From assembly GCA_963556495.2 (NCBI GenBank), contig OY747709.1:57087930-57151929 (forward strand): a DNA stretch of 64,000 bases, written 5' to 3'. Below, piece by piece: positions 49,701 through 58,670 of the stretch. The notes beneath the pieces are model-generated. The model was not told where the DNA came from, ran no database searches, and was given only the letters and a program-made list of their open reading frames with translations. This stretch comes from Valencia hispanica (Eukaryota; Chordata; Actinopteri; Cyprinodontiformes; Valenciidae). Within the stretch, counting starts at the first letter, position 1. Every line of letters starts with the position of its first letter. The translations under genes and the position numbers were made by a program.

Positions 49701-52700
49701 ACGGCACATATTCAGGAAGTCTCAGCAAAGACTCATCGGACGATCACGTCCCACCAGGAAGATCCCAACCCAGGAATCTTCGTAGAGGTTATCTGGCCGA
49801 CCTGGTAGTGGCTCGGGATCCACATTCAGGAAAAACCCAAGAAGAGAGCAAGAAGAAGGGAATCTCGAATGTTGTCCTTTTCTGTATCGGTCTCTAAGCT
49901 GTAGATGCTTTCAGCTGTTGCTTGTTTTATGAGCTCTGATCTCATTTAGTGTCGGATTCCTGTCGTTATTTAAAAGAACAGATTGTTTCTCCTCCAGTTT
50001 TCAGAGGATCAGCTCCTGAAGCAACAGAAGCTTTCCTAAAAACCCGGCATAACGCCATAAATGTCAGCTTTCAGAAAACTTGTCTTTATTTTTGTATTCT
50101 TGCTATTTAATTTGATGTTTGATGTAAAATGTTTCACACATTTGAGTTGTTCGTTGGTCCTTTCACCACCAGGGGACGCTGCAGAAGTTTGTGGATGACC
50201 TTTTTGAGACTGTGTTCAGCACCGCCCATCGTGGCTCCGCGCTCCCGTTGGCGATTAAATACATGTTTGACTTTTTGGACGAGCAGGCCGATAAACGAGC
50301 GATCACCGACCCGGATGTCCGGCACACCTGGAAAAGCAACTGGTGAGCCTAAGATGCCGTGACTGGTCTCCCTGGATAGCTTCCTTGGAGCTGAGTAAAC
50401 CCCTCTGTGTGGTCTGCAGCCTTCCTCTCAGGTTCTGGGTGAACGTCATTAAGAATCCTCAGTTTGTGTTCGACATCCATAAGAGCAGCATCACGGACGC
50501 CTGCCTTTCGGTGGTGGCGCAGACCTTCATGGACTCCTGCTCAACGTCCGAACATCGACTGGGCAAAGACTCGCCGTCCAACAAGCTCCTCTACGCTAAA
50601 GACATCCCCAACTACAAAAGCTGGGTGGAGAGGTACAAAACCCAATCAGTAGTTATCTATTAATCTATTACAGCTTTATAGGGCAAACCTGAAAAGAATC
50701 AGATGAACCACAGTATAGATCGTTTTCATCGCTACAACCAGATGAGATATGAGGTCAGGTAACAAACCGTCAGAGGTCACCAAAAGGTCACAATCGATTT
50801 TATTGTTAAACATCAACATGGTCTGTGTCCGGCTTTATTTTGAGACGTGATTCAGCAGTTTTTCAGCTCATGGACGTAAAGGTTGTCTAATAGGAGGAAG
50901 CGTCTGATGTTTGTTGGGTTTTATTGTACAACGTTGCTTATTTCTGACCCATCTTTTACATTTAGTCCACCAATCGTTAAAAAGTCTAAAATAGCTCCAG
51001 ACTTGCTTCATTCTAAGACCAGAAGCCGGTGAATCGGTTAAACACGGATGGATTTCTAAACCATCCGTCTGACGTTTCTGTCTGTTTCTGTCAGGTACTA
51101 CAGGGATATCTCCAAGATGCCCAGCATCAGCGATCAGGACATGGATGCCTACCTGGTGGAGCAGTCCCGCCTCCATGGCAACGAGTTCAACACACTGAGC
51201 GCGCTCAATGAGCTCTACTTCTATATCAACAAGTACAAGGAAGAGGTGAGGCTGTTTGGTTTAACGTTTGGAGGATGTTCATTTAATCTCCAGGGTCCTT
51301 AGTTTCCCACCTTTTCCTGAAAACCATTTCAGTTTGGTACTCACAATTATCATGCTGTCTAGAAATATACATGAAGAGTCCTTTAGTCTGTTTAGCTCTA
51401 AAACGCCTCTTTAAAACGCTTAATCTTTATGTAGTATGGATCTTTTTATTCATGTCTGGTCTTGGATAAGAACAGAAGCTGAGTTTGAACAATTCTTCCG
51501 TTTTTGAAAAGATAAATAAGATTATTTGTATAACTAAAGCTGTTTTTAACAGTTTAATTTAAAGATGTCTGTTGTGTTTTATTCACTTTGCCTCAAAGTT
51601 CATTTCAGCAATCAGTATTTTTATATATGAATTTTGCATTCTTTTGAAAAGAGATCAGAAAGGTCAGTTTTACAGCTGTTTGTGGCATGTAGACAGATTT
51701 AAACGATGCTTTTAATCTGAAGGGCCTTAAAGAACCTGTCCTGATTGGTTAAATGGTGCCAATCTAAATTAGTTTGGAAAGCTGCATCTTGATTTGTGGA
51801 ACAAACTGATGATATAACCAGAATATTAAAGAAGTGGCAGGAACAATGAGGAACAAGCTTAGCAGCTCATATTGTCATTAACAGGTCAAGATTCTCAGAA
51901 ATTATAGTAAAATAAAAGATGAAGCTTTAAAATTTCCTTTCACTGATGCTTTTATCAGGGTTAGATCTGAGTGATGCTATATTGAACAGTGTTCCAGTCT
52001 CCCAGCGTCTCCCAGTAAGGCTCTTTATGTTGGTACCAGCTGGGCATCGACTCCCAGTTCTCTGTATCCCATCGCCAGCTCATCATGTCTTTGTGACCGG
52101 CTTAAAGCTTTTCTTCTTGGTTTGTGAGGCACTCAGCGGGATTAGGCTGTAGCATGTTGCTGACCTCTAACCTTAGAGGCTTCCAGGGTCACTCAGATCT
52201 ACCAACTGTTTACTGTCCTGAGGAAACCTGAAGCTTTCTGCTGAAACCTCTAAATTACAATATTCATCCTGCTGCCCAGTTAGGTCAGGAGTCTGGTTTT
52301 ATTCTCATGAATGGATGGATGGATGGATGAACAGATGGATGGATGAACAGATGGATGGATGGATGGATGGATGGATGAACAAATGGATGGATGGATGGAT
52401 GGATGGATGAACAGATGGATGGATGGATGGATGGATGGATGGATGGATGTCTGGTTGGATGAATGGTTGGATGTCTGGTTGGATGAATGGTTGGATGTCT
52501 GGTTGGATGAATGGTTGGATGTCTGGTTGGATGAATGGTTGGATGACCCAGTCTGTCCCTGTCTCCCTGTAGATCCTGACGGCGTTGGATCGGGACGGTT
52601 GGATGTCTGGTTGGATGTCTGGTTGGATGAATGGTTGGATGTAGCACTGCCGCGAGTAGTCGACCTAACCAATGAGGTCGAATATGAAATATTGTCGTCA

Positions 52701-58670: not shown

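Follow-up and report, generated by a model that had tools for sequence, protein, structure and literature searches.

The window analysed here, a 64,000-nucleotide stretch of the Valencia hispanica genome, contains plxna3, a nerve-guidance gene. Thirty-two exons placed by reading within the window join into a single open frame of 1435 amino acids, with AG preceding all 32 exons and GT following each of the 31 non-last exons; a 10-kb stretch lying upstream, half of it N, yielded no additional exon of the gene. Among ten listed proteins compared, the closest were those of Cyprinodon variegatus (94.3% identity), Scatophagus argus (94.1%) and Nothobranchius furzeri (93.3%). The joined protein aligned to PDB 3ig3 ("Plxna3 protein", which we take to be that of the mouse) across the junction ...KYKEE/ILTAL with an E value of 7.8e-72 (a slash marks a junction throughout). 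Because this alignment spans the last junction, 51245 is the true donor and 58575 the true acceptor of that junction, in phase 0, and the donor assumed in an earlier note on this DNA is upheld by the alignment together with the open 32-exon frame.

Other parts of the gene carry repeats and inserts of their own. An open reading frame on the minus strand at 18886-19947, inside an intron, resembles what we take, by its motifs, to be a LINE reverse transcriptase, and two further introns hold a 9.8-kb array of TAACACACACAT (23378-33186) and a 6.2-kb array of a 19-mer (10717-16920). A run of 27 G residues (58691-58717) lies in the 3′ UTR directly after the stop codon. The features of the last intron and its flanking exons are:

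51095-51245, + strand, penultimate plxna3 exon, donor GAAGAG/gtgagg, placed with the PDB 3ig3 alignment
52307-52641, + strand, 5′ part of the TGGA/12-mer minisatellite, containing decoy 1
52547-52596, + strand, decoy 1, start 52573, junction GGGACGGTT/GGATG kept
52642-55476, + strand, presumed hAT-like transposon splitting the minisatellite, 8-bp flanks GTTGGATG and GATGGATG
55479-58548, + strand, 12-bp minisatellite array (TGGATGTATGGT), decoys 2-9 embedded
55557-55606, + strand, decoy 2, start 55583
55618-58370, + strand, perfect tandem duplication with a 1365-bp unit; at an offset of 1365, 1388 bp align with 0 mismatches
56312-56361, + strand, decoy 3, start 56338
56527-56576, + strand, decoy 4, start 56553
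56850-56899, + strand, decoy 5, start 56876
57677-57726, + strand, decoy 6, start 57703, 1365-bp-duplication copy of decoy 3
57892-57941, + strand, decoy 7, start 57918, 1365-bp-duplication copy of decoy 4
58215-58264, + strand, decoy 8, start 58241, 1365-bp-duplication copy of decoy 5
58382-58431, + strand, decoy 9, start 58408
58549-58598, + strand, real acceptor and start of the last exon
58575-58670, + strand, last plxna3 exon, 31 residues, placed by reading and the 3ig3 alignment

According to the earlier note, the last-exon acceptor and the coding bases directly behind it recur nine more times in the last intron, at the decoy starts given above, and a mismatch search confirmed both the copies and every one of these starts. 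With 3 mismatches allowed, the module CTCCTGTCTCCCTGTAGATCCTGACGGCG had ten matches in the window and none in 100 shuffles, and its 29-base core was exact in eight of the nine decoys, with 2 mismatches in 52573. All ten module matches listed from a whole-genome search fell inside the window. As had also been claimed, decoys 52573 and 55583 retain GATCGGGAC, and all nine decoys join donor 51245 in phase 0.

Through the perfect 1365-bp tandem duplication, which the earlier note did not contain, decoys 56338, 56553 and 56876 recur as 57703, 57918 and 58241; six decoys are distinct and were not generated by it. From 55583 to 58575 the spacing of successive copies was 12k-1 bases in eight of eight pairs, the upstream sequence of decoy 58408 was identical to that of the real site 58575, and the array ended 26 bases before the real acceptor. 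The insert at 52642-55476 was classed, presumptively, as hAT-like; its 8-bp flanks are alike at 7 of 8 positions but lie inside a repeat, and its ends are alike at 10 of 20. It is a member of a dispersed family, the first 259 bp having at least 41 genome matches including itself (40 of 235 candidates scored). Removal of the transposon and one 8-bp flank reduced the distance between 52573 and 55583 to 167 bases (again 12k-1), the same spacing as that between 58241, 58408 and 58575. Capture of the acceptor thus probably preceded the insertion.

Acceptor strength was scored with a small matrix built on 21 acceptors of plxna3. The real site and seven decoys, identical to one another over 23 bases at the splice site, scored 5.8, decoy 55583 scored 9.8, and 52573 scored 12.7, the highest value in the intron; 15 of the 355 AGs in the intron outscored the real acceptor. 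Because the decoys score at least as high as the real site, the matrix cannot tell which acceptor is used. On inspection, a TGAC, which we take to be a possible branch point, lay 26 or 27 bases before the exon start in all ten copies. The core from -36 to +12 was invariant across four younger copies and the real site, followed by 12 bases that vary; repeat units deviated at about 4% of constant positions (40/1008 and 3/99).

Use of a decoy would replace the normal C-terminus by a repeat-coded GWM tail, often ending QCLLSPCRS, as the earlier note had proposed. Indeed, six of the nine decoy tails end in QCLLSPCRS, their stop being a TGA made by the next module, which reading enters out of frame because the modules lie 12k-1 bases apart. 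The tails of 55583 and 56876 meet earlier stops within the array, that of 52573 stops after 23 amino acids at a TAG on the transposon edge, in agreement with the earlier prediction, and the GWM tails differ in length among decoys. Downstream of the eight decoys from 55583 onward, no AATAAA precedes that of the gene itself at 60968, and their use would therefore lengthen the same last exon and give it a frameshifted tail. Decoy 52573 is the one exception, with an AATAAA 425 bases downstream at 52998 inside the transposon, which also contains this motif at 53682, 53731 and elsewhere, and from its sequence 52573 could be the decoy likeliest to form a short, self-contained alternative last exon. 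The statement that one last exon had become ten candidates is therefore too strong, since eight decoys would only extend the same exon and three stem from one perfect duplication.

Under the usual junction rule, stops in the last exon do not mark transcripts for decay, and decoy transcripts would be predicted to escape such marking if no further splicing follows. Splicing from a decoy to a donor within the array, producing a cassette exon, is possible on the sequence. The best donors inside the array (GAT/GTACGG, score 6.0) equalled some real donors; decoy cassette exons were nevertheless set aside as candidates, the donor copy just upstream of each module leaving about 40 bases before the next acceptor. 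We infer, by analogy, that most transcripts use 58575 and that decoys contribute at most minor frameshifted tails, the expected dominance of 58575 resting on exon context and analogy and not on acceptor strength.

A second case, larger than that of the last intron and on which the earlier note was silent, was found at the acceptor of the PSI exon (position 4948):

3563-4947, + strand, 17-bp array of CTGTCCCCCAG/GTGTGT or GTGAGT, with 71 decoy CAG/GTG
4948-5048, + strand, PSI exon (VSKLPVESC...), whose acceptor is the real one of the 17-bp-array case

The 17-bp array runs directly, with 0 intervening bases, into the real acceptor CTGTCCCCCAG/GTGAGCAAG, giving 72 CAG/GTG when the real one is counted. 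CAG/GTGAGT occurs in 29 of the 71 decoys and had a donor score of 11.0, compared with at most 10.8 for the real donors (22 of 31 scored). Twenty-three of the 71 decoys are in frame with the real exon, 7 of these with a frame open to it. All 55 genome-wide matches to the exact pattern of a dimer of the 17-mer lay in this array. VS or VT is common at the start of the PSI exon among the listed homologues, making the exon the likely source of the array copies. In the listed Cyprinodon variegatus model P0002, the residues immediately ahead of the PSI exon are non-repetitive, a weak hint from sequence that the array may be absent in that species. Joining 1699-1704, in the window's first exon, to 4948-4956 rebuilds a donor-like CAG/GTGAGC at the exon junction; rebuilt junctions of this kind occur in recursive-splicing exons.

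Among the 32 acceptors and 31 donors, these two acceptors alone have copies in the window (up to 4 mismatches in 25), and 16 of 600 random non-tandem 25-mers had a copy there. Five of the 11 intronic arrays of at least 100 bp ended within 60 bp of an acceptor and none of the 11 began within 60 bp of a donor. Random placement predicted 0.47 arrays near acceptors (simulated P 1.5e-5), or 0.42 with the two decoy arrays left out, against 3 of 9 found (P 0.004), values to be read with the reservation that the 60-bp limit was chosen after the data were seen and that arrays sharing an intron are not independent. The arrays at 9259-9539, 41563-43608 and 44101-45290 end 44-56 bases before an acceptor and contain no acceptor copies at up to 4 mismatches in 25. 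The CAG-rich arrays 6967-7459 and 44101-45290 were considered as acceptor copies and rejected by the same threshold.

The locus lies in repeat-rich sequence near a contig end. The window ends 326 kb from the end of its contig, whose last 300 bases contain degenerate TTAGGG. Ten 10-kb stretches within 420 kb of this end, 3 of them partly masked, averaged 28% tandem repeat (median 13%, range 2-100%); the mean in ten mid-contig stretches was 0.6% (median 0.5%). A three-unit pattern of the 12-bp minisatellite GGTTGGATG had 168 exact genome matches, with several contigs among those listed. On one of these, C7, 5.2 kb was read, and the GGTTGGATG family at 57274.8-57278.3 kb contains 20 copies of a flank block, spaced 12k+4 bases apart in 15 of 18 cases; the last copy, at the array end, passes into non-repeat sequence. 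No gene was recognised, by eye, at the C7 array. The oldest copies there read TTTCATTCTTCCAG, which is acceptor-like; a former splice site may therefore have lain at this array, making C7 an imperfect control. With that caveat, the GGTTGGATG family seems to copy whatever adjoins its 3′ edge.

The description of a tandem array that captured a splice acceptor is thus well supported by the copies, the 12k-1 register, the duplication and the second case. We propose that the decoys are a minisatellite by-product, in which an array abutting an acceptor slips into it, copies it and amplifies it, and that they are probably neutral; the confidence we attach to this reading is substantial, and the reading comes from one assembly. 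A hypermutable subtelomeric minisatellite of TGGATG-type 12-mers would have grown in the last intron until it reached the branch-point, pyrimidine-tract and AG region. By slippage or unequal exchange, ACGGTT of the last exon would then have paired with ACGGTT of a repeat unit, and this pairing would have returned a copy of the acceptor, together with about 24 coding bases, to the array. Decoy 52573 has GGGACGGTT/GGATG in place of the GGGACGGTT/ACTG of the exon, and TACGGTTGGATG is among the repeat units. Of the 6-mers in exon bases 1-70, ACGGTT alone recurs in repeat units; the other shared 6-mers start at 78-81. A single slip at ACGGTT would account for the junction of decoy 52573, presumably the first capture junction. 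Subsequent in-register expansion would have multiplied the captured acceptor and would account for the constant 12k-1 spacing. The hAT-like element would then have split the array, and the 1365-bp duplication would recently have doubled three decoys. A process of the same kind, larger and based on a separate 17-bp unit, may have acted at the PSI-exon acceptor. On the splicing side, the by-product reading is favoured by the intact frame of the gene and by the normal plexin C-terminus in 119 of 120 listed homologues (5384 matches).

Comparable structures, termed mirages, are minisatellite-like duplications of intron-exon boundaries described in amphioxus Adh3 and the globins BflGb6 and BflGb9, with similar structures in TnC and PGBD5 (PMC3087553, PMC3902484, available text). 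There, as in plxna3, the intron end and exon start are tandemly copied in near-identical copies. Both plxna3 acceptors were copied together with the first exon bases, both arrays adjoin the authentic boundary (the gap to the real acceptor being 26 bases in the last intron and 0 at the PSI exon), and the copies are homogenised by tandem-repeat turnover, as seen in the perfect 1365-bp copy, the invariant core and the identity of the 58408 upstream sequence to the real one. The plxna3 arrays differ in occurring in a bony fish and at two acceptors of one gene, and in having 9 and 71 extra copies, compared with the 6 and 3 units given for the BflGb6 haplotypes in that text. In the last intron, unlike in the amphioxus mirages, the boundary is a passenger in a separate 12-bp minisatellite. 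No vertebrate mirage under that name was found in searches of open-access literature, a weak negative. In human segmental duplications, minisatellite expansion at exon-intron borders is said to alter gene structure and to form novel introns; those internal repeats lie within exons or at borders, and the accessible portion of that report describes no case of many copies upstream of an exon as in plxna3 (PMC2812944). Like ratchet points (PMC8605326), the PSI units place an acceptor and a donor back to back (CAG/GTGAGT) and present AG/GT; ratchet points, however, are used sites in long introns, whereas the PSI array is 1.4 kb long with the motif in 29 of 71 predicted decoys.

If the decoys were functional, their number would set the share of truncated, frameshifted C-termini, amounting to a tunable plexin-A3 splicing switch. 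Every decoy does have an AG, a pyrimidine tract and the right phase, and 52573 joins the best acceptor score of the intron to the transposon AATAAA. The invariance of the core in the four younger copies and the real site could likewise reflect selection on the decoys instead of recent copying, which counts against the by-product reading; as evidence of selection it was not accepted, since a more recent origin of the modules might be all that it shows and the comparison was post hoc. We consider a functional role improbable, because the same minisatellite family copies its flank on C7, where no gene was recognised, because the predicted tails are repeat-coded GWM peptides of varied lengths, and because a GWM tail was present in none of the 120 listed homologues (of 5384), although the homologue comparison is a weak test in a database clustered at 90%, where tail-only isoforms would merge. 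Appreciable use of the decoys might instead be harmful, yielding non-functional transcripts and lowering plexin-A3 output. The ABCA7 VNTR offers a precedent in an intronic tandem repeat with a splice signal in its unit and a length that tracks splicing, longer alleles showing more exon 19 skipping and lower expression in the available text (PMC5954066). The ABCA7 unit, however, carries a donor and its effects were measured in RNA, whereas the plxna3 repeat holds an acceptor, that of the exon which follows, and is known from sequence. The local splice sites of seven decoys and the real exon are identical, yet the gene is intact with a highly conserved C-terminus, and amphioxus mirages reportedly leave splicing undisturbed (PMC3087553, in part), so that such a load seems as improbable as a function.

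Part of the array, chiefly the error-free 1365-bp duplication, might also be an artefact of assembly. The 0 mismatches over 1388 bp would fit this, and an amphioxus array of this type was reportedly assembled aberrantly (PMC3087553). Against it stand the six distinct decoys that owe nothing to the duplication, the like behaviour of the PSI and C7 arrays, and the contiguity of the 1.29-Gb genome, whose 29 contigs suggest long reads; we regard an artefact as very unlikely. The strongest reading, in which plxna3 carries two hypervariable splice-site arrays that act in its expression, appears equally remote. If it were true, copy number in the last intron would tune the ratio of normal to truncated plexin-A3 C-termini, 52573 with the transposon poly(A) signal would be a real alternative last exon, and the intron before the PSI exon would be removed stepwise through the ratchet-like AG/GT sites lined up in its array.

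The plxna3 decoys are thus a real and striking, probably neutral, mirage-type structure in a vertebrate, occurring twice in one gene. With a single donor set against ten acceptors, and with seven decoys out of nine matching the real one exactly at the splice site, the last intron offers a natural experiment on whether 3′ splice-site choice follows transcription order, distance or last-exon definition. The locus also suggests a mechanism of acceptor duplication, in which a minisatellite abutting an acceptor captures it, and acceptor duplication is a proposed first step toward new exons and introns. A 2007 paper by Zhuo, cited in PMC3087553, links human introns with tandem arrays in its title. 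That a single gene close to a chromosome end holds both cases suggests that a systematic search in fish for such genes would be worthwhile.
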